Positions 2 to 9,950 of a DNA stretch of 51,669 bases are shown here, piece after piece. Source of the DNA: an uncultured Pelagibacteraceae bacterium (GTDB taxonomy: Bacteria > Pseudomonadota > Alphaproteobacteria > Pelagibacterales > Pelagibacteraceae); contig CACKBK010000006.1 of NCBI GenBank assembly GCA_902598425.1, forward strand, positions 1-51,669, in the 5' to 3' direction. Under the pieces are notes generated by a model. That model was not told where the DNA came from. It was given only the letters and a program-made list of their open reading frames with translations, and searched no databases. The first letter of the stretch is position 1, and each line of letters opens with the position of its first letter. The translations under genes were made by a program, and so were the position numbers.

Positions 2-1357
2 AAATTAATTGATGATTTTTTAGTAGAAAAAAATAGTTTTATATTTGAGTCAGTTGAAAAAGGAAAAATAAAAGGCAGATATACAATATTTGGTAGGAAC
101 CCTGATAAAATTTGGGAATTCAATAATAATTATGGTTATTTGATACAGAATAAAAAAAAAATTAAAATTAAAGGAAATCCTGAAAAAATAATAGAGAAAA
201 TAATAGAAGATTTTAAATTTAAAACTCCCTCAATTTTACCACCAATATCATCTTTAATTTCAGGATATTTTTCTTATGATTCAATTAGATATATTGAAAA
301 AATACCTAATACTTGTAAAGACGATTTAAAATTGCCAGACGTTAGGCTCTTAAGACCTAGAACTTTGATTATTTATGACAATTTAAAAAAAAAAATATTT
401 TATATTATTAATGTTTTCAATGACGAAAAAATAACAAATTTTTCAAAAAAATATACTCAAGTTCAAAATGAACTAAATAGTCTATACAATAATAATTTTA
501 ATATTAAAAAGAAAAATAATATTAAAAAAAGTAGCTCAAGAATAAATATAAAATCGAATACTTCAAAAAGTAGTTTTCTAAATATGGTGAATAAAGCTAA
601 AAACTTTATAAAAATAGGTGATATTTTTCAGGTGGTTTTAAGTCAAAGATTTGAAGCTAAATTATCAAAAGATCCCTTAGATATATATAAAAAATTAAGG
701 GTCACAAACCCCTCGCCTTTCATGTTTTTTTTTAATTTTCCTGACTTTCAAATTATCGGTGCGAGCCCTGAAATTCTAGTCAGACTAAGAGACAATAAAA
801 TAACTGTAAGGCCTATAGCTGGAACCAGACCAAGGGGGAAAAATTATATTCAGGATAAATTTTATGAAAAAGATTTACTAAATGATAAAAAGGAACTTTC
901 AGAACATTTAATGTTATTAGATTTAGGAAGAAATGATGCGGGTAAAGTTTCGAAAATTAACAGTGTAAAGGTCACAGAAAGCTTTACTATTGAGAGATAT
1001 TCACATGTCATGCATATAGTCTCTAATGTAACTGGTGTATATAATAACAAGTATTCTAAATTTAAATCATTACTGGCTGGATTTCCTGCTGGAACTGTTT
1101 CGGGTGCGCCAAAAATAAGAGCCATGGAAATTATTGATCAGCTAGAAAAAACAAAACGAAAAGTTTATGCTGGAGGTATCGGTTATTTTTCTGCTAATGG
1201 AGAATTTGATACTTGTATAGCACTAAGAACTGCAATGGTAAAAAATAAAAAATTTTACGTTCAAGCTGGCGCTGGGATAGTAGCAGACAGTGTTCCTTTA
1301 AAAGAATATGAGGAAACTGTAAATAAAGCTAAAGCTTTAATTAATGCTTTAAGATAA
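2..1357 (+). CDS. trpE: Anthranilate synthase component I, 5' end outside window
   Basis: This cytoplasmic subunit converts chorismate to anthranilate using ammonia supplied by TrpG, the first committed step of tryptophan synthesis. The frame is open from base 2. The residues upstream of the first possible internal start (TTG at 140) already fit the family, including an E-S element resembling the tryptophan-feedback site (ESVEKGKIKGRY), so that TTG is not the start. About 451 residues are visible against roughly 490-520 in the family. Chorismate-binding motifs are intact: PIAGTRPRG, GAPKIRAMEIID and AGAGIVADS near the C-terminus. Its TAA overlaps the trpG ATG by one base (TAATG), pointing to translational coupling. 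The trp promoter and any leader are outside the window. Confidence 0.95.
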   Translation, partial: KLIDDFLVEKNSFIFESVEKGKIKGRYTIFGRNPDKIWEFNNNYGYLIQNKKKIKIKGNPEKIIEKIIEDFKFKTPSILPPISSLISGYFSYDSIRYIEKIPNTCKDDLKLPDVRLLRPRTLIIYDNLKKKIFYIINVFNDEKITNFSKKYTQVQNELNSLYNNNFNIKKKNNIKKSSSRINIKSNTSKSSFLNMVNKAKNFIKIGDIFQVVLSQRFEAKLSKDPLDIYKKLRVTNPSPFMFFFNFPDFQIIGASPEILVRLRDNKITVRPIAGTRPRGKNYIQDKFYEKDLLNDKKELSEHLMLLDLGRNDAGKVSKINSVKVTESFTIERYSHVMHIVSNVTGVYNNKYSKFKSLLAGFPAGTVSGAPKIRAMEIIDQLEKTKRKVYAGGIGYFSANGEFDTCIALRTAMVKNKKFYVQAGAGIVADSVPLKEYEETVNKAKALINALR

Positions 1358-1929
1358 TGAAAATTGTATTAATAGATAATTACGATAGTTTTACTTTTAA
1401 TTTGTTTCATTATTTATCATCTTTTAAAATAAAAGTTGATGTAGTTAGAAATGATAAGATTACCTCAAAGCAAATTTTAAATAAAAAATACAACAAGATT
1501 GTAATATCACCTGGACCAGGAAACCCCAATCAATCTGGAAATTGTCTAAATATCGTTAAATCACTTCATGAAAAAGTTCCTATTTTAGGCGTTTGTTTAG
1601 GTCATCAAATAATTGGACAAGTGTTCGGTTCAAAAGTAGTTCAAGCAAAAAAATTAATGCATGGTAAAACAAGCAAAATTATTTCAAAAAAAACAGGAAT
1701 ATTAAAAAATTTACCAAAAAATTTTGAGGCAACAAGATATCATAGTTTAATAATTGATAAAAAAACCCTTTCAAAAGACCTTGAAATTACTGCACAGACC
1801 ACGGATGGATTAATTATGGGAATTCAGCATAAAAAATATAACGTTCATGGAGTGCAATTTCACCCTGAAAGTATTAAAACAAAATTAGGATTAAAAATTT
1901 TAAAAAACTTTATAAAATATAAAAATTAG
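1357..1929 (+). CDS. trpG: Anthranilate synthase component II (glutamine amidotransferase)
   Basis: This class I glutamine amidotransferase hydrolyses glutamine and channels ammonia to TrpE. At 190 residues it has the usual length of a stand-alone TrpG. The nucleophile elbow is GVCLGHQ with Cys80, the oxyanion-strand motif SPGPGNP lies at about 51-57, and the His/Glu pair is in HGVQFHPES (His169, Glu171). The start is fixed by the 1-base overlap with trpE, and the stop codon shares its last base with the GTG of trpD. A PabA role is possible because some small genomes use one amidotransferase for both tryptophan and folate. The position between trpE and trpD makes the trp role primary. Confidence 0.95.
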   Translation: MKIVLIDNYDSFTFNLFHYLSSFKIKVDVVRNDKITSKQILNKKYNKIVISPGPGNPNQSGNCLNIVKSLHEKVPILGVCLGHQIIGQVFGSKVVQAKKLMHGKTSKIISKKTGILKNLPKNFEATRYHSLIIDKKTLSKDLEITAQTTDGLIMGIQHKKYNVHGVQFHPESIKTKLGLKILKNFIKYKN

Positions 1930-2921
1930 TGAAAAATTATATCGATAAAATTAAAAAAAAACAAAGTCTGACCTTTGATGAAAGTAAAGCTGCTTTTGAG
2001 ATATTAATGGAAGGAAAAGCAAATGATGAGGAAATATATGATTTTTTAACATCATTATCTGAGAAAGGTGAGTCTTCAGATGAAATAGCTGGTGGAGTTT
2101 TTGTGCTTAGAAATAAGTCCAAAAGGGTATCTATAAGGGGTTGTGTTGATACATGTGGAACTGGTGGAGATGGTATGAACACGCTGAATATATCCACTGC
2201 CTCCGCTTTGTTACTAGCAAGTATGGGAATAAAGGTTGCAAAACACGGGAATAAAGCTGTGTCATCAAAATGTGGATCTGGTGATGTGTTAGAGGCTTTG
2301 AATATCAAAATAAATTTAGAGCCAAATGATATTGAAGATCAAATAAAAAAAAATAATTTCGGTTTTATGTTTGCGCCTAATTATCATAGTGCAATGAGAT
2401 TTGTTGGTCCAATCAGAAAAAAAATTGGAAAAAGAACTATATTTAATATGATTGGACCTTTAAGTAGTCCTGCTCTAGTGAAAAGGCAAGTTGTTGGAGT
2501 TTTTGATAAAAAACTCTTAAAGATATTTGCAAATGCTTTAAATAATTTAGATATTAAATTTGCATGGATTGTTAACAGCGAGGATGGTTTAGATGAAATT
2601 TCACCATATGCTAAAACAAATGTAATTCAACTTAAAAACAGTAAAATTTCTGAAATTATTATTGATCCAAAAGAACTAGGTATAAATGCAGATAAGTTTG
2701 AAAATCTTGTGGGCAATGATGCTAAATTTAATGCAGATAAAATGATTAATATATTTAAAGGAGAGGATAATGATTTTTCTAAAGCTGTGTGTTTAAATGC
2801 TGCTGCTGGTTTGATTGTAAATGAAACACATAAAAATTTCGCTCATGCATATAACGCTTCAAGAGAACATATTCTATCAAAAAAAGTTATAAAACATTTA
2901 GAAAAAATTCAAAATGCCTGA
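1929..2921 (+). CDS. trpD: Anthranilate phosphoribosyltransferase
   Basis: Transfers the phosphoribosyl group of PRPP to anthranilate, the second dedicated tryptophan step, in the cytoplasm. The protein has 330 residues, normal for the family. It shows the PRPP-binding GTGGDG (77-82), NIST (87-90) and the KHGNKAVSSKCGSGD segment (105-119). The start is a GTG whose G is the last base of the trpG stop; no later ATG would retain the N-terminal helical domain. The 3' end overlaps trpC by 8 bases. The tightly overlapped order trpE-G-D-C indicates one operon. trpF, trpB and trpA are not in the window. Confidence 0.95.
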   Translation: MKNYIDKIKKKQSLTFDESKAAFEILMEGKANDEEIYDFLTSLSEKGESSDEIAGGVFVLRNKSKRVSIRGCVDTCGTGGDGMNTLNISTASALLLASMGIKVAKHGNKAVSSKCGSGDVLEALNIKINLEPNDIEDQIKKNNFGFMFAPNYHSAMRFVGPIRKKIGKRTIFNMIGPLSSPALVKRQVVGVFDKKLLKIFANALNNLDIKFAWIVNSEDGLDEISPYAKTNVIQLKNSKISEIIIDPKELGINADKFENLVGNDAKFNADKMINIFKGEDNDFSKAVCLNAAAGLIVNETHKNFAHAYNASREHILSKKVIKHLEKIQNA

Positions 2922-3705
2922 TAATGTTCTTGAAAAAATAATTCAAAAGAAAAAAGAAAAAATAGAAAATTTAAAAAAAAATATTACTTTAGAGTCGTTA
3001 AAAGAATCAGTTGCTTCAAGTAAAACATTTATTAATTTTAAAGAAAAAATTGAAAATAATTTAAAAGATAACAAAATTTCAATAATTGCTGAAATCAAAA
3101 AAGCCAGCCCCTCTGCTGGTATACTTATAAAGGACTATGACCCTGTAAAAATAGCTAATATATATGATGAAAATAAAGCTACTTGTTTGTCAGTTTTAAC
3201 TGAAGAAGATTTTTTTTTAGGAAACTTGAATCATATAAAAAAAATCAAAGAAAAAATAAACTTACCAATTCTTTGTAAGGATTTTTTTGTGGATAAATTT
3301 CAAGTGCCATTAGCAAAAAGTTATGGTGCAGATGCAATATTAATTATATTAGCTGGAGTAAGTGAAAACCTTGCAAATGAATTGTATGAAGAAGCATCTA
3401 AATTAAATATGTCAGTTATAGTTGAGGTCCATACTGTCGAAGAAGCTAAAGAGGCTCTAAAATTTAAAAATGCTTTAATAGGAATAAATAATAGAAATTT
3501 AAAAACTTTAAAAACTGATATAAATACAACTTTTGATATTCATAATGTTCTGAGAGATCACCCAGGTCCATTAATTTCTGAAAGTGGAATTAAAACAAAA
3601 GATGAGCTTTTAGATTTATCAAAAAAGACCTCTATTAAAACTTTTTTAATCGGTGAATCACTTTTAAAAAATTTACATAATAATTCTATTTTTTCAGTTC
3701 TTTAG
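2914..3705 (+). CDS. trpC: Indole-3-glycerol phosphate synthase
   Basis: This (beta/alpha)8-barrel enzyme closes the indole ring of carboxyphenylamino-deoxyribulose phosphate, giving indole-3-glycerol phosphate. It has 263 residues and is monofunctional, with no TrpF domain fused. Catalytic landmarks are visible: the EIKKASPS strand with Lys62, CKDFF with Lys122, the glutamate of VEVHT (Glu171), GINNRNL (Asn192) and the phosphate-binding SESGI (222-226). It is the last gene of the overlapping trp cluster; the next gene, lexA, lies 88 bases further on with its own operator, so the trp transcript probably ends in that gap. No strong intrinsic terminator hairpin is visible there. Confidence 0.95.
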   Translation: MPDNVLEKIIQKKKEKIENLKKNITLESLKESVASSKTFINFKEKIENNLKDNKISIIAEIKKASPSAGILIKDYDPVKIANIYDENKATCLSVLTEEDFFLGNLNHIKKIKEKINLPILCKDFFVDKFQVPLAKSYGADAILIILAGVSENLANELYEEASKLNMSVIVEVHTVEEAKEALKFKNALIGINNRNLKTLKTDINTTFDIHNVLRDHPGPLISESGIKTKDELLDLSKKTSIKTFLIGESLLKNLHNNSIFSVL

Positions 3706-3754
3706 TCAATTAATCCCAGTTTTTATTACTTTTTTTACTATTGTTAATTATAGA

Positions 3755-3769
3755 GAACTTTTGTAGAAC
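3755..3769 (+). promoter_or_regulatory. LexA operator (alphaproteobacterial SOS box)
   Basis: The site reads GAAC, seven bases, GAAC: exactly the direct-repeat LexA box known for Alphaproteobacteria (GAAC-N7-GAAC, equivalently GTTC-N7-GTTC). It lies 24 bases upstream of the lexA ATG and overlaps a plausible promoter (TTGTTA, 17 bases, TAGAAC). Binding there would block lexA transcription, so lexA should be autoregulated. Confidence 0.85.
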
Positions 3770-3793
3770 AGATTCTGTACGATATTTGTTCTT

Positions 3794-4468
3794 ATGCTTA
3801 CAAAAAAACAAAAAAATTTACTTTTATTTATCAACAAGAAGTTGAGAAGCTCTGGTGTATCTCCTTCTTATGAAGAAATGAAAGCTTCACTTAATCTAAA
3901 ATCCAAATCTGGGATACATAGACTAATTAGTGCTTTAGAAGAAAGAGGATTTATTAAAAGATTGGCTCATAAAGCAAGAGCGCTAGAGGTAATAAAATTA
4001 CCTGAAACAGCTTCTGCTAACGATATTTATAACAGCTTCTCACCGAGTATAATAAAAGGTGGCTTAGACAATGAGCAGGAAGTTGGTGGGGCAGAAATAC
4101 CAGTATTAGGAAAAATTGCTGCTGGAACTCCTGTTGAGGCAATACAAAATGAGGTTTCTAGAATTCCACTTCCTGAAAATATTGAAAAAAAAGGTGAATA
4201 TTTTGGATTAAAAGTACAAGGCGATTCTATGATTGAAGCCGGTATTAACGATGGAGATACGGTCGTTATAAAGAAAACTGATACAGCAGATAATGGAAAG
4301 ATAGTTGTTGCTCTTATTGATGATCATGAGGCAATGTTAAAAAGAATTCGAAAAAAAGGCAAAACTGTAGCATTAGAAAGTGCTAATAAAAACTATGAGA
4401 CAAAAATTTTTGGGCCAGATAGAGTAAAAGTTCAAGGCGTTCTAGTATCTTTATATAGAAGTTTCTAA
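3794..4468 (+). CDS. lexA: LexA SOS repressor
   Basis: Represses DNA-damage genes and cleaves itself when RecA is activated. It has 224 residues. An N-terminal winged-helix DNA-binding domain occupies about 1-68 ([20 protein letters not shown]) and a C-terminal S24 peptidase domain about 100-224. The self-cleavage site is the Ala110-Gly111 bond in GKIAAGTP. The catalytic Ser145 is in GDSMIEAGI and Lys183 is in AMLKR, so the protease is intact. The ATG is chosen because the winged helix begins directly after it. The linker between domains (about 70-100) is longer than in E. coli LexA. The SOS box in front supports autoregulation. gltX follows 22 bases downstream and may be cotranscribed. Confidence 0.96.
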
Positions 4469-4490
4469 TTAAATATAATAAACAATTATA

Positions 4491-5882
4491 ATGAAAAAAG
4501 TAGCAACTAGATTTGCTCCGTCTCCTACTGGACCTTTGCATATTGGTGGAGTTAGAACCGCGTTGTTTAATTGGTTATTTTCCAAAAATCAAAATGGATC
4601 TTTTTATTTAAGGATAGAAGATACTGATAAGGAGAGATCTAAAGATGAATACAAAGATCAAATAATCAAATCACTTATATGGATTGGTATTGAAAATGAT
4701 GGGGATGAATATATTCAATCAACAAAAATACAAAATCATATTAAAGTTGCAAAACAATTGCTTGATAAAGGTCTTGCTTACAAGTGTTATTGTTCAAATG
4801 AAGAAATAGAGGAACAAAAAAAAAGAGCTAAGCAAAAAAAAATTCCATATATTTATGATAGGAAATGGAGAGATAAAAATGAAACAGATGCCCCCAAAGA
4901 TGTTAAACCTACTATTCGCTTCAAAAGTAAAATTGAAGGAACATCTATTTTAAAGGATTTAGTTCAAGGTAAGGTAGAAATCCAAAATAACACAATTGAA
5001 GATTTTATAATCCTTAGAAATGATGAATCACCAACTTATAACTTATCTGCATCAGTTGATGATCATGATATGAATATAACACATATTATAAGGGGTGATG
5101 ATCATAAAATTAACACCTTTAAACAAATGCAAATTTATCAAGCTATGAATTGGGAAGTACCCAATTTTGCCCATATACCTTTAATACATACATCAGAAGG
5201 AAAAAAATTATCAAAAAGAGACAAAGCTTCAACTTTAGATGATTACTCTAAAATTGGAATATTGCCAGAAGCATTAAGAAATTATCTCCTAAGATTAGGC
5301 TGGTCGTATAAAGATAAAGAAATATTTTCAAAAGAGGAAAGTATAAAATATTTTAATTTTGAAGGAATCGGAAAGTCACCCTCTAAACTGGATTTTAATA
5401 GAATTCTTTCTATTAACGAACATTATATTAAAAATATAGATGAAAATGATTTGTTTAGTAAATTTCAAAAATATGCTCAAACATATAAATATAAAATATC
5501 TGAGGATAAGACTAATCAATTAAAACAGTCACTGGGATTTCTTAAAAATAAGGCCAAAACATTAGAAGATATTTTTAAAAATTCACAATATTTATTAAAC
5601 GATACAGTCAAAATTAATCAAGATGATTTGAAGTTAATTGACGAAAAGTCTAAAAAAATTATTAAAGAATTTATCGAAAAAATCCTAAATTTAAATAATT
5701 TCGATAGAAGTGAACTAGAACCCATAGTTAAATCTTTAATATCTAAATTTGATACAAATTTTAAAGGCGTTGGTCAGCCTTTAAGAATAGTTTTGACAGG
5801 ATCGAGATTTGGACCTGGTATTTATGATATTTTAACATCTTTAGGAAAGGTTCAGGTTGTCGAAAGACTAAAGAATATCTAG
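4491..5882 (+). CDS. gltX: Glutamyl-tRNA synthetase
   Basis: This class I synthetase charges tRNA-Glu (and, in many alphaproteobacteria, tRNA-Gln for later amidation). It has 463 residues, the usual bacterial length. The HIGH-type signature is in PSPTGPLHIGG (His17-Gly20) and the KMSKS-type loop is KLSKRDK (239-245). The C-terminal anticodon-binding domain is complete. The ATG lies 22 bases after lexA. The 3' end overlaps the convergent lectin autotransporter gene by 4 bases, leaving no room for a terminator between them. Confidence 0.96.
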   Translation: MKKVATRFAPSPTGPLHIGGVRTALFNWLFSKNQNGSFYLRIEDTDKERSKDEYKDQIIKSLIWIGIENDGDEYIQSTKIQNHIKVAKQLLDKGLAYKCYCSNEEIEEQKKRAKQKKIPYIYDRKWRDKNETDAPKDVKPTIRFKSKIEGTSILKDLVQGKVEIQNNTIEDFIILRNDESPTYNLSASVDDHDMNITHIIRGDDHKINTFKQMQIYQAMNWEVPNFAHIPLIHTSEGKKLSKRDKASTLDDYSKIGILPEALRNYLLRLGWSYKDKEIFSKEESIKYFNFEGIGKSPSKLDFNRILSINEHYIKNIDENDLFSKFQKYAQTYKYKISEDKTNQLKQSLGFLKNKAKTLEDIFKNSQYLLNDTVKINQDDLKLIDEKSKKIIKEFIEKILNLNNFDRSELEPIVKSLISKFDTNFKGVGQPLRIVLTGSRFGPGIYDILTSLGKVQVVERLKNI

Positions 5883-8017
5883 AATGATTGTGAAAATTCT
5901 ATTGTAATTATATTTTCAAAGTCATCGTTACTTTTTTGAATTCTTCCAAGCTTTGTGTAAACGTTTAATCCTCTATCTGTATTATAATTGTATCCTGTTT
6001 CAATTTTCATGAAATAACTGTAAGGAACGACATAATTATAAGTATAAAGTTTTTCTGTTGAATCGCTTATTAAATTTGCTTGTATCGAGGCTTTTTCAGA
6101 GTGATCTTTTTTATACTCAAATTTTAAAAATGATACATGTTTATCAATTTCATTTTCTCTTCTATAGAATAATGTTGATCCAATTGAAGATGTGTAATTT
6201 GTCAAAGTGTGAGGTTTAAATTTAAGTTTTTGATTGTTTCCAGATTCTGAGTATCCATTAAAATCTGTATAAATATAGTCTAATCCTGAAAATAATTGTA
6301 AATCAAATTTATCAACATTTTTAATATAATTTAAATATGTTGTTCCATAAAATTGCTCAGATTTTCTATCACCTATGACTAAATTAGATGTATTTGATCT
6401 ATCTACAACTCTCTCAGTTAAACTTTTTAATGCCCCATAACCAAGTATACTATCAAGATATAGGGATTTAGAGTTCCAAGCTGAATAAACAATTAAATTT
6501 TCACCGCGCATTGTCAAATTAGAACCATGATTACCTATGTCAGTTTTATCATCAGCGATGTTGAGAGCTATACCAAACAAAGTATTATTTTTTAATTTAT
6601 CAAAACCAATAGTAATAGAATCCATCTCATTTTCTTTAGCTAAATTATTTAATTTTAAATCTGTTCGTCCTGTTGAAATTTTACCATTTATCCAAAACTG
6701 CCAGTCGTTCTCTTTAGTATTATCAACTTTTTTATTTTGCACATAGTTAGCAAGTGATATAAGACCTTTTGATGCATAATGATTAATTATATCTTCATAA
6801 TTTTTACCAATTTCATCTAAGTTAACTTGAAGCGAAATTTTATTATTTTTGAAACCTTTATTATTTTTTCTTAACCTAAATTCATGAAGCCTATCTAATA
6901 CGCTATCCATACTATTTCTTGCAAATCTTGTGGCTGACTCGTTTTGAGCATCAACGATACCAACTAACTCCTGATCATCAAAAACATTATATGTACTGTC
7001 TGATGCCTCAATAGACTCTATTCTTAAATTAACAACTCCGGTTGTGGTGGCGCTTTCTCCATCAGTACCACCATATTCTATAATATAAAACATGACACCT
7101 GCTCTATCACATTCGTAATCATTCCAATCTCCATCAGATCTCATATGTGCACAATCTTCATCAGCAGGATCACCAGTAGGGTGGTCATTAGGTTCAAATT
7201 TAGATGGCTGTCCTTCAGGTCTTCTCCAGCTATTATACTCGTAACCTGATGCTAATGCACAATCCGCGTGTGCATCATCTGCCTTTGATCCAACAGCAGT
7301 TTGACAAAAAAAAGTATTTCCATTATCAGGACCAGACACCCACTCCCAAGTCCCCTCGGTTACAGGGTGAGAATTTGATGTATAAGTAGAGCTATCTGAT
7401 CCACCAATCCAAGTATCTTGGCCTACTTTACTATCCAAAAAATCATTTTCAGCTTGAGAAGTAATTGTAGCAAGATAACCAGATAAACCGTACAAGGTTG
7501 ATGCTTCAGCAGCAGCCTTTGCTTCAGGCCATGTTTTTTCTGCATTCACTATTTCATAGTAATGACCAGTACCCGAAAAATAATTCGTACCTGCGGGTGT
7601 TATTGAAACAGTTATCGTTGGAGATCCAGTTGATCCGTCACCTTTAAAAGATAAAGTAGCAATAGCAATATTTATATCATCCTGTGTTCCTCTAAAACCT
7701 ACTTCTGTTAGGGAATTACCCGAGCAGTTTGTAGGCTCAGTTGATGCATCACTCGTATAACCACAATAGCCCTTAGCTCGTAACAAATTTGACGTTGTAG
7801 TAACCTTAACATTTCCGGAAGATGCTACAGCTGAAAATATAAGTGTTCCAGAATAACCTGAAATTGATGGAGTTGTTCCAGAAGAAGATAATAAAACAAA
7901 ATCTGTTGTATTAGCAACCAGGTTTGTAGGAAATGTTAGGGTCTCTGCTTTAACAATTTTATTATAACTAAAGAGCAAAAATAAAATGAGAAAGAAAGTT
8001 TTTCTTACCTTGGTCAT
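5879..8017 (-). CDS. Autotransporter-like outer-membrane protein with C-type lectin domain
   Basis: A predicted surface protein of 712 residues, not a named gene. Residues 1-24 form a signal peptide (basic start, long hydrophobic core, cleavage after KAE-preceding Ala24). Residues 25-145 are Ser/Thr/Gly-rich and beta-like, with two Cys (85, 98). Residues 148-318 read as a C-type lectin fold: GHYYEIVNAEKTWPEAKAAA, WIGG (203-206), WEWVSG (224-229), the calcium/sugar-type EPN (275-277), EDC (287-289) and WNDYEC (298-303). A helical linker (about 358-384) leads to a barrel-like region (about 437-712) ending in Phe, as expected for a BamA client. Family knowledge suggests calcium-dependent glycan binding at the cell surface; the ligand is unknown. 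It starts 5 bases after lpxB with no clear Shine-Dalgarno. Confidence 0.85.
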   Translation of the reverse strand: MTKVRKTFFLILFLLFSYNKIVKAETLTFPTNLVANTTDFVLLSSSGTTPSISGYSGTLIFSAVASSGNVKVTTTSNLLRAKGYCGYTSDASTEPTNCSGNSLTEVGFRGTQDDINIAIATLSFKGDGSTGSPTITVSITPAGTNYFSGTGHYYEIVNAEKTWPEAKAAAEASTLYGLSGYLATITSQAENDFLDSKVGQDTWIGGSDSSTYTSNSHPVTEGTWEWVSGPDNGNTFFCQTAVGSKADDAHADCALASGYEYNSWRRPEGQPSKFEPNDHPTGDPADEDCAHMRSDGDWNDYECDRAGVMFYIIEYGGTDGESATTTGVVNLRIESIEASDSTYNVFDDQELVGIVDAQNESATRFARNSMDSVLDRLHEFRLRKNNKGFKNNKISLQVNLDEIGKNYEDIINHYASKGLISLANYVQNKKVDNTKENDWQFWINGKISTGRTDLKLNNLAKENEMDSITIGFDKLKNNTLFGIALNIADDKTDIGNHGSNLTMRGENLIVYSAWNSKSLYLDSILGYGALKSLTERVVDRSNTSNLVIGDRKSEQFYGTTYLNYIKNVDKFDLQLFSGLDYIYTDFNGYSESGNNQKLKFKPHTLTNYTSSIGSTLFYRRENEIDKHVSFLKFEYKKDHSEKASIQANLISDSTEKLYTYNYVVPYSYFMKIETGYNYNTDRGLNVYTKLGRIQKSNDDFENIITIEFSQSF

Positions 8018-8022
8018 AAATA

Positions 8023-9159
8023 TTAATTTTTGATATAATCAGCTATAATATTTGCTGCATTTGAGGATGACAATCCATTATTTCTAATATCACTGATAGT
8101 TTTTTGACAAATATTCATTTGTTTTTTCATTAATTCTGGATTTTTTAAAAGGTAAACTACAGAATTAAAAATTTCTTTTGGATTGCATTCGTTTTGAATT
8201 AATTCAGGAATAACTTCTTCATTATTAATAATATTAATAATATTCGCATACTTTACCTTAACTAACATTTTAACAATTAAATAATTTAAAAAATTCATTT
8301 TATATATAATTATTGATGGTACCTTTGCCTGACAGATTTCAAGAGAAACAGTTCCAGACTTAGCTACTGCAAAAATAGATTTTGATAGTATATGCGATTT
8401 TATCTTTTCATTAGAGATAACGTCGATATTGTTGTAATTTATTTTTTTTATCTCATCTTTTATTAAATTTTTGTTTTGATCAGTTGCATGAAAAACAAAG
8501 TTATATTCTTTAGATTTTTTGTTCATTAACTTAATAAAATCTATCAATATTGGTAAAAGGATACCTGTTTCCGAAGATCTACTTCCAGCAAATAAAGATA
8601 TAATTTTTTTGTTATTATCAATTAAATTTGATAAATCTGTTTTTACATTGTCTGCAGTTTCCAATAATGGATGTCCTACAAAAGTATTTTTAATATTTTC
8701 TTTATCAAAATATTTTTTTTCAAAATTAAATAATAATAAAATATGATCTAAAAACTTTTTAAAATTCTTTACCCTTCCCTCTCTCCACACCCAGACTTGA
8801 GGAGCAACATAATGTATAGTTTTAATATTTGGATTAATACTTTTTACTTTTTCAGCAACTCTTAAAGTAAAATCAGGACTATCTACACTAAATAAAATAT
8901 CCGGATCAAATTTTATAATTTCTTCTACAGTATAATTAATTTTTTTTTTAATCTTTAAAATGTTAAATAATACACTTGTAAAACCAATATAAGTAATTTC
9001 TTTAAGATCAAAAATAGATTTTATTCCTAATGAATTTAAGTGTGTTCCACCAACACACGAATATTTAATATTAGGATTATCTATTTTAAGTTTGGATATA
9101 ACTTTAGAAGCAAGTTTATCTCCTGAAGGTTCTCCAGTTAATATAAAAATCTTTTTCAT
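8023..9159 (-). CDS. lpxB: Lipid-A-disaccharide synthase
   Basis: This glycosyltransferase (GT19) joins UDP-diacylglucosamine and lipid X to form the lipid A disaccharide at the inner face of the cytoplasmic membrane. It has 378 residues, full length. Family motifs are clear: the N-terminal TGEPSGD (8-14), APQVWVWREGR near 120, the nucleotide-site FAGSRSSE near 190 and KSGTVSLEICQAKVP near 270. The ATG overlaps the end of lpxI by 4 bases, so translation is probably coupled. It is the last lipid A gene of the cluster; the lectin autotransporter follows after 5 bases. Confidence 0.96.
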   Translation of the reverse strand: MKKIFILTGEPSGDKLASKVISKLKIDNPNIKYSCVGGTHLNSLGIKSIFDLKEITYIGFTSVLFNILKIKKKINYTVEEIIKFDPDILFSVDSPDFTLRVAEKVKSINPNIKTIHYVAPQVWVWREGRVKNFKKFLDHILLLFNFEKKYFDKENIKNTFVGHPLLETADNVKTDLSNLIDNNKKIISLFAGSRSSETGILLPILIDFIKLMNKKSKEYNFVFHATDQNKNLIKDEIKKINYNNIDVISNEKIKSHILSKSIFAVAKSGTVSLEICQAKVPSIIIYKMNFLNYLIVKMLVKVKYANIINIINNEEVIPELIQNECNPKEIFNSVVYLLKNPELMKKQMNICQKTISDIRNNGLSSSNAANIIADYIKN

Positions 9160-9950
9160 TTAACAGATATGAACATCCTATTTTTATCAACAAATTTGAT
9201 ACATTTGTTTTTATCTAAAAAGACATGGTGTTTATTTTTAATTACAATACCTTTCAATCCAGCAGCTTTACTTTGCTTAATCGTTTTCAACCCAATTGTT
9301 GGAAGATCTACTCTTAAGTCTTGTTTCTTTTTTGGAAACTTAACTAAAACACCATCATTTCTAAACTTTTTACTTCTACTTTTTTCAAGCATTTTTTTTG
9401 TCCCACCTTTTCCTTCTATAGAAATTATCTTTTTATTTCTAACCACAACTCCTTGGCTAAAGTTATATTCTCTTAAATTATTTAGTGTTTGAATTGCTTT
9501 AATAATATCTAATTGGTCTTTTTTATTCGGTTTGATCTTGGAATATGTACCTTTTTTTAAAGATAGTTCAGGATTAAATTTTAATGAATTTTCGGTTTTA
9601 ATTTTATTTTGCGCTAATATTTTAATAATTTCTTTAAGTATAGCTGCGTCTCCAAGCTTGGATGCTTTGATTATTCTTGAGATATAATAAACTCCTTTAA
9701 AATCTAATTTTAATTTAGAAAAGTTTGGTTTATTTACTTTTCCAGCAAACAAGACTCTTTTGCAGTTATTTTCTTTAAGAATATTTAAAATTTTACCAAA
9801 TTGGCCTATGGATACCGAGTGAGATTTGTTATCTTTATTAAATTTTTTTGATTTTGATAAATCTATTATCAAATATCTTATTTTTCTTTTTTTAATAGTT
9901 TTAAGAATTTCGTTTGGAAAATCAGTGTCACCAAAAATTAGTCCTATCAT
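9156..9950 (-). CDS. lpxI: UDP-2,3-diacylglucosamine pyrophosphatase LpxI
   Basis: Hydrolyses UDP-2,3-diacylglucosamine to lipid X. LpxI (formerly DUF1009) is the alphaproteobacterial replacement for LpxH. It has 264 residues, the family length. The N-terminal half carries an FAGKVNKP motif and the C-terminal catalytic half contains EGKGGTKKML and KKKQDLRVDLPTIGLKT, in which the RxDLPTIG aspartate matches the metal-site residue of the family. Its position between lpxA and lpxB is the usual one in Alphaproteobacteria and supports the call. The start is 1 base after the lpxA stop and the end overlaps lpxB by 4 bases. Confidence 0.93.
   Translation of the reverse strand: MIGLIFGDTDFPNEILKTIKKRKIRYLIIDLSKSKKFNKDNKSHSVSIGQFGKILNILKENNCKRVLFAGKVNKPNFSKLKLDFKGVYYISRIIKASKLGDAAILKEIIKILAQNKIKTENSLKFNPELSLKKGTYSKIKPNKKDQLDIIKAIQTLNNLREYNFSQGVVVRNKKIISIEGKGGTKKMLEKSRSKKFRNDGVLVKFPKKKQDLRVDLPTIGLKTIKQSKAAGLKGIVIKNKHHVFLDKNKCIKFVDKNRMFISVK

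Follow-up and report, generated by a model that had tools for sequence, protein, structure and literature searches.

What would a free-living marine bacterium with a small genome do with a sugar-binding protein fixed to its surface? The question is raised by one gene in a stretch of 51,669 nucleotides, here called the window, which is contig CACKBK010000006.1 (positions 1 to 51,669, forward strand) of assembly GCA_902598425.1 from an uncultured member of the Pelagibacteraceae. An earlier note, made from the sequence alone, had read this gene as encoding a C-type lectin joined to an autotransporter barrel, which it thought unusual for a small-genome marine bacterium. The setting is as it supposed: the host belongs to SAR11, family Pelagibacteraceae, and its assembly comprises 915,646 bases in 38 contigs at 75% completeness. 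The gene is a single open frame of 712 codons plus a stop in the list of open reading frames (ORFs), at 5879-8017 of the window. This interval agrees exactly with that of the note, which named no strand; the frame lies on the minus strand, and a plus-strand reading was rejected, as its translation is full of stops. To judge from the sequence and its relatives, the product is likely to be an adhesin that is displayed on the surface and binds glycans with the help of calcium, and homologous exchange of the lectin would be what diversifies its specificity.

A C-type lectin on an autotransporter barrel

Five parts follow one another along the protein: a signal peptide, a beta-rich N-terminal domain, a C-type lectin, a linker and a C-terminal barrel (Table 1). 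Pfam matches Lectin_C (PF00059) on the window protein with an E-value of 4e-8 (34.4 bits against a curated cut-off of 22.6; best stretch 162-258), and both Lectin_C and Autotransporter were matched in all 27 orthologues scanned (E up to 0.01). A profile built from 27 orthologues retrieves solved C-type lectins from the PDB from E 4.1e-9, among them CD23, CLEC10A, ASGR1 and mannose-binding proteins. A structural model of the passenger (residues 25-325), made from an alignment that held 34 viral and two SAR11 relatives, reached a mean predicted local distance difference test score (pLDDT) of 67.1 and a predicted template modelling score of 0.59, with most lectin blocks at 62-90. Foldseek matched this model to C-type lectins (best E 8.4e-8). 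VIA-align did likewise, with Z scores of 13.8-15.2 among the matches listed, which include collectin-11, langerin, DC-SIGNR, CD23, surfactant protein D and mannose-binding protein; the top figures are a Z of up to 15.2 and a root-mean-square deviation of 2.0 over 129 residues. A viral structure library returned mostly distant matches to the model, with C-type lectins of animal viruses among them.

The binding site itself is strictly conserved. In alignment A1, which has 27 rows and omits some near-copies, E275, P276, N277, E287, W298, N299 and D300 are invariant in all 27 sequences, and chance is thereby excluded. A larger alignment of 34 orthologues, which the window protein enters as L035, omits three fragments (L034, L052, L060), the proteins on other scaffolds (L062-L064), and L001 and L053, which duplicate L035 and L007; none of its 34 rows departs from EPN or WND. 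By its sequence the protein appears to carry the site of an EPN-type lectin. The lectin fold with EPN and WND residues foreseen in the earlier note is thus supported by Pfam, by the PDB profile and by a passenger model of moderate confidence, low near EPN, and both motifs and the terminal phenylalanine (SQSF) were found where it had put them. The EPN motif is tied to mannose and the QPD motif to galactose (PMC5379193).

For the barrel, Pfam Autotransporter (PF03797) covers residues 441-688 and profile positions 1-252 of 255 (E 6.6e-23, 82.2 bits against a cut-off of 26), and the 27-orthologue profile matches the autotransporter esterase EstA (3kvn) in the PDB at E 1.5e-10. The barrel proposed earlier is upheld by these profile matches; as an autotransporter barrel it would be expected to form a closed ring of 12 strands with a helix in the pore, in a part where the full-length model is of low confidence. 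With a signal peptide, a passenger and this barrel, the protein is by homology a classical (type Va) autotransporter. The intimin/invasin (type Ve) class was ruled out, since it needs an N-terminal barrel and the barrel here is C-terminal. In a quick tree, the 34 lectin-bearing barrels fell on one side of a branch and 24 barrels with other passengers on the opposite side (Shimodaira-Hasegawa-like approximate likelihood ratio test, 95), the latter being those fetched with the window protein as query and not a full sample. The fusion therefore looks single and exchange stays within the lectin family; a lectin passenger hopping among unrelated SAR11 barrels was rejected on the same branch.

A Pfam scan of the window protein found no family on the N-terminal domain (residues 25-149), in which C85 and C98 are kept in all 34 orthologues. 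NCBIfam gave the window protein one match, of 11.7 bits against a cut-off of 450, which is nothing meaningful, and PHROGs held no family for the window protein or for the three viral relatives tested.

An optional gene at a clean insertion site

The gene is rare outside SAR11 within the phylum and patchy within SAR11. Queried with the passenger and the start of the linker, 32 of 399 genomes of the same genus matched, through 27 lectin autotransporters (two of them, L052 and L060, cut at contig ends), four giant proteins recognised by frame length, two of which were read, and one pilin-like protein (L062). The N-terminal domain and lectin together matched two of 398 Pseudomonadota genomes, the host included. 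The rarity that the earlier note had suspected is supported by the 27 of 399 and the two of 398. In a family-wide draw the whole protein matched 39 of 197 genomes, 26 of these via the barrel part alone. Lectin_C itself was matched in seven of 197 genomes of the order and six of 190 of the class, the host included in both; in the five other Lectin_C genomes of the class no barrel was seen by eye next to the lectin, in translations limited to 700 residues and to the fetched stretch, and with Pfam run on one.

The gene is also optional, filling a clean insertion site after the lpx operon. A survey of 61 genomes of the genus gave 46 lpxB matches, and 30 of these loci were read: at 28, gltX follows lpxB with fewer than 100 bases between the matched parts, and at the other two, the window and L074, the lectin gene occupies the junction. 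It stands at the same junction in L008, L032, L033, L036-L038 and L054-L059, and the address is shared by two barrel lineages that are about 28-30% identical. Other addresses exist. In L042, L043, L045, L047 and L049 the gene lies between genes read as pnp and a short-chain dehydrogenase; L003 adjoins genes read as prepilin peptidase and pilin; and L007 and L010 adjoin another autotransporter.

Variability is concentrated in the lectin

Comparison among related genomes, which the earlier note had proposed as a way to find out whether the lectin loop is hypervariable, came out positive. The C-terminal half of the lectin (residues 256-316) was the least conserved of five regions in 56 of 66 pairs whose barrels are more than 80% identical, and was less conserved than the barrel in 59. 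Nine hand-picked pairs that share no row gave a similar picture: a lectin half was least conserved in eight, the ninth (L039, L040) being at least 98% identical throughout. Sites that vary in at least four of five clades number 12 of 167 in the lectin, one of 125 in the N-terminal domain, one of 120 in the linker and one of 276 in the barrel, where the mean is 0.86 of 5 clades varying per site. Eight of the 12 lectin sites fall in two stretches, singled out after counting, that directly follow EPN and WND (278-286 and 301-309), while EPN, E287 and WND do not vary. In a circular-shift test the lectin as a whole was unusual, with 16 of 688 shifts as high. The signal peptide has the highest mean variability of the regions compared, as is usual. 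The residues of the calcium site are fixed, yet nowhere in the mature protein is variation greater than in the stretches that directly follow them.

Lectin alleles recombine between lineages

Synonymous divergence (dS) is raised along with nonsynonymous divergence (dN) in the lectin, which points to the import of diverged alleles. The clearest case is the DNA of L003 and L004: the preceding gene differs by 0-2%, the stretch encoding about residues 20-320 by 21-50%, the remainder of the gene by 0-6%, and what follows by 0%. L036 and L037 differ by 18-30% in the lectin and 3-11% elsewhere, and the window and L033 by 7-11% in the gene start and N-terminal domain, 9-15% in the lectin and 0-8% elsewhere. 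In L003/L004 the exchanged stretch takes up almost the entire passenger; in L042/L044 it spans roughly residues 141-320, and in L036/L037 roughly 161-320.

Lectin and barrel also tell different histories (L061 was omitted from the identity comparison and from the tests that follow). The lectin of L037 is 74% identical to that of L044, at a barrel identity of 28%, and only 70% identical to that of its own barrel sister L036; L003 and L006 share 83% identity in the lectin and 48% in the barrel. Approximately unbiased tests, whose p-values are to be taken as indicative, reject three barrel clades on the lectin data (p 9.6e-5, 1.4e-4 and 0.017), two of which have support of 100/100 and 100/98 on the barrel data, and reject two lectin groups on the barrel data (p 1.8e-6 and 7.6e-6). 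Resolution in the lectin tree is weak: 10 of its 29 inner branches are starred, and it joins two long rows. Lectin alleles thus recombine between lineages, and the barrel and lectin trees conflict.

Relatives in viruses and on other carriers

Related lectins occur beyond these autotransporters. A first scan of viral contigs, with the single window protein as query, confirmed no relative; an alignment-based scan of IMG/VR found 230 viral-contig stretches that encode one, and the best 80 of the 230, which were kept, are 27-36% identical. All 34 viral rows that were aligned keep the EPN, E and WND residues unchanged. A domain resembling the N-terminal domain stands before the lectin in viral relatives, and those inspected have a signal-peptide-like start and differing tails after the lectin (for instance L104, L106 and L117). 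Endolysin-like genes lie nearby, by eye, in two of the three viral loci read gene by gene. INPHARED gave no match in 50,697 annotated phage records, and a plasmid search gave four records with weak partial matches. The viral relatives are distant kin, from which the direction of transfer is not readable.

Within SAR11, L062 (genome G493; 1114-2949, minus strand) encodes a protein of 611 residues that begins like a type IV pilin (Pfam N_methyl, the N-terminal methylation motif, E 1.5e-5) and has a stretch 41% identical to the window lectin over 97 query residues, with EPN and WND by eye; a Pfam scan of it did not call Lectin_C. The two giant proteins that were read, L237 (G078; 3919-9648, minus, 1,909 residues) and L238 (G288; 1878-7067, plus, 1,729 residues), have a LamG domain by Pfam and, by eye, a pilin-like start and several C-type lectin-like domains. 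Pfam called Lectin_C in one of the two and no pilin family on either start. These carriers suggest more than one display machine for related lectins in SAR11.

Three side observations belong here. L037, L044 and L062 all have a CC pair directly after EPND or EPNN in the variable loop, though their carriers differ, and this sequence signature is perhaps that of an allele type common to several lineages and carriers. L237 and L238 adjoin proteins that look FecR-like by eye. In another alphaproteobacterium (G1171), L231 (994-1989, plus strand) is a flagellin (Flagellin_N, E 1.3e-8) into which a C-type lectin is built (Lectin_C, E 5.5e-8), possibly representing a lectin-bearing flagellum.

A proposed mechanism and its rivals

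From these data we infer display, calcium and sugar binding, a ligand and a selective agent as follows. The signal peptide would direct the protein to the periplasm, where the C-terminal barrel would insert in the outer membrane and expose the passenger, a beta-rich spacer followed by an EPN-type lectin. The lectin would load calcium from seawater and bind sugars with mannose-like hydroxyls (the class of mannose, N-acetylglucosamine, glucose and fucose) borne by particles, algae, other cells or phages. Whole lectin domains would be exchanged between lineages as alleles, the barrel and the genomic address being kept. Because the site residues are fixed, the adjoining stretches variable and the lectins exchanged, what the population varies is probably ligand specificity. 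Candidate selecting agents are the variety of the ligands themselves (algal or particle glycans), grazers and phages.

Several results weigh against this account. In the passenger model, residues from about 235 to 284, which comprise a long loop and EPN, have pLDDT values of 45-57, with the EPN loop at about 50. A full-length model, whose barrel part had near-identical sequences as its only input, has a mean pLDDT of 44.5, with nearly all of the barrel below 40 (blocks of about 28-37). In seven of the 66 close pairs the lectin's C-terminal half is at least as conserved as the barrel, the two most variable stretches were picked after the counts had been seen, and residues 264-300 taken alone are nothing special in the circular-shift test (107 of 688 shifts as high). 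Except in a few of the closest pairs, dN in the lectin is lower than dS, and both are raised there, so that the pattern indicates exchange of diverged alleles rather than positive selection at individual sites. Starting about 480 bases past the gene, the L003 and L004 loci diverge again, by 5-14%, and their near-identity therefore covers the neighbourhood only, not whole genomes. The pattern is reversed between the window and L032, which differ by 0-1% in the lectin, by up to 8% in the flanks and by 13% in the signal peptide region. Finally, the groups submitted to the approximately unbiased tests were partly chosen after the identities had been seen.

A serious rival, which overlaps with the adhesin account and is itself unlikely, is that phages drive the lectin diversity. 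The protein would then be a phage receptor with rotating exposed alleles, or else would act as a decoy by binding glycans of the phage or the host, with the viral relatives engaged in the same contest. Such a contest would suit the patchy presence of the gene, the allele exchange on a near-identical neighbourhood in L003/L004, and the 230 viral-contig stretches with endolysin-like genes at two of the three loci read. It would also suit reports that a hypervariable region of pelagiphages holds a structural lectin-domain protein (PMC10504331) and that lectin-like proteins are among the commonest genes of marine phage variable islands (PMC3909814). However, the viral relatives are distant at 27-36% identity, the three viral loci resemble, by reading, phages of Bacteroidota or Actinobacteria and not pelagiphages, and the annotated phage records contained no match. 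Moreover, a mere receptor would have no need of invariant calcium and sugar residues.

Those same residues bear on a second and still less probable alternative, in which the domain is a non-binding C-type lectin-like fold that serves as a structural surface module, with tolerant loops drifting neutrally under ordinary homologous recombination. Frequent recombination is to be expected in SAR11, and the joint rise of dS and dN in the lectin fits neutral exchange, yet all seven calcium- and sugar-site residues are invariant over 27 divergent sequences while their neighbours vary, and they stay so in the 37 rows of the alignment with viral relatives.

A diversity-generating retroelement, whose targets include many variable proteins of the C-type lectin fold, would suit this lectin with its variable stretches beside the binding site, but was rejected as highly improbable: RVT_1, the reverse transcriptase family, was matched in none of 13 genomes (the host and 12 lectin-positive ones, most of them incomplete, with G040 given as 100% complete) against three of 14 control genomes, changes in two close pairs were mixed, showed no adenine bias and in the main hit the third base of the codon (36 of 66 and 67 of 131), and the window protein as query found no second lectin in the host genome.

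Relation to known systems

Classical autotransporters usually carry a beta-helix as passenger. With those of PF03797 and with EstA the window protein has in common a signal peptide, a passenger, a linker and a C-terminal barrel of about 275 residues ending in phenylalanine; here, however, the passenger is a globular spacer plus a C-type lectin, neither a beta-helix nor an esterase. The animal EPN-type lectins (collectins, langerin, DC-SIGNR, CD23) share the fold, the order EPN-E-WND and the position of one cysteine pair, whereas the present lectin is bacterial, is fused to a barrel, has a long loop at about 211-263 by eye, and lacks the cysteine pair in 17 of 34 orthologues.

In SAR11, autotransporters have been described in hypervariable region 1 (SAR11_0042, 0044 and 0046; PMC2217521). 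The lectin barrels split from the 24 other SAR11 barrels, a set that may or may not hold those genes. A coastal SAR11 'autotransporter adhesin' of about 5-9.5 kb, proposed from genomes, has genes for a type IV pilus or for type II secretion as neighbours (PMC12636525). It too is a SAR11 surface adhesin, and L003 likewise lies near prepilin peptidase and pilin genes, but the coastal one is much larger; it may be the giants L237/L238 under another name. Intimin and invasin (type Ve) adhesins are also barrel-anchored with a lectin-like tip (PMC7718877, PMC3008723), but in them the barrel comes first and the passenger makes up the C-terminal part, the reverse of the order here. The mannose-binding lectins of grazers form a further background (PMC2704228, PMC9457565). 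No description of a SAR11 lectin autotransporter was found among the matches listed from the open-licence literature searched, and a search of that literature for 'Lectin_C' together with 'autotransporter' found none. Each part is known, and the combination in SAR11 with its exchange pattern was not found in the literature so sampled.

The locus and its features

The lectin gene follows a same-strand run whose members, named by us from their sequences, are presumably dxr, bamA, a skp/ompH-like gene, fabZ, lpxD, lpxA, lpxI and lpxB; place as well as sequence points to lpxB, and the convergent neighbour is taken from its sequence to be gltX. The lectin gene is probably co-transcribed with lpxB. 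Another autotransporter in the host genome, L002 (contig C11, 508-2733, plus strand), is 27% identical to the window protein over the barrel part, and its passenger falls in with a family of beta-propeller lactonases (E 5.7e-5); many of the SAR11 autotransporters fetched resemble one another at their start.

Table 1. Features of the lectin-autotransporter gene and its two neighbours, in window coordinates
Feature	Coordinates	Strand	Basis and remarks
Signal peptide, residues 1-24 (MTKVRKTFFLILFLLFSYNKIVKA)	7946..8017	-	Charged start, hydrophobic core and A-x-A-like end by eye; putative cleavage site
N-terminal beta-rich domain, residues 25-149	7571..7945	-	Sequence; GTQxxIN motif, C85 and C98
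C-type lectin domain, residues 150-316	7070..7570	-	Pfam Lectin_C, PDB profile matches, model
EPN motif, residues 275-277	7187..7195	-	Predicted calcium/sugar site, mannose type; 34/34 orthologues
Hypervariable loop between EPN and E287, residues 278-286	7160..7186	-	Mean 3.1 of 5 clades varying per site
E287	7157..7159	-	Invariant in 27/27 and in all 37 rows when the passenger is aligned with viral relatives; by position, taken to be the third acidic ligand of calcium site 2
C289 and C303, flanking WND	7109..7153	-	Of 34 orthologues, 17 have both, 17 have neither and none has just one; presumably the usual C-type lectin disulfide position
WND motif, residues 298-300	7118..7126	-	34/34 orthologues
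Hypervariable stretch after WND, residues 301-309	7091..7117	-	Mean 3.2 of 5 clades varying per site
Linker, residues 317-436	6710..7069	-	Low-confidence model with helices at 360-384 and 408-428
Autotransporter barrel domain, residues 437-712	5882..6709	-	Pfam Autotransporter, EstA profile match; terminal Phe
lpxB	8023..9159	-	ORF list; 5 bases upstream of the lectin gene, same strand; end of the lpx run
gltX	4491..5882	+	ORF list; convergent neighbour, sharing its last 4 bases with the end of the lectin gene; bounds the empty site on the other side

Implications

Beyond what the earlier note had offered, the locus has yielded an empty site, exchange of lectin alleles, viral relatives and a pilin-like second carrier. 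A hypervariable calcium-type lectin on a barrel would mean that some SAR11 cells spend scarce genome on recognising particular sugars. As the gene is single and optional, its empty site is known and nature supplies pairs of alleles on almost the same barrel, hypotheses of attachment, grazing and phage attack become directly testable. Tentatively, and with some doubt, one may go further and envisage a surface-lectin repertoire at the level of the SAR11 population, in which calcium ligands are fixed, loops are exchangeable, autotransporter genes at different addresses recombine, and kin are borne on type IV pilin-like proteins. If true, such a repertoire would amount to a shared, lectin-based system of variable recognition in the ocean's most abundant bacteria, operating without a dedicated diversification enzyme, and cells thought to drift freely would recognise specific partners or enemies.

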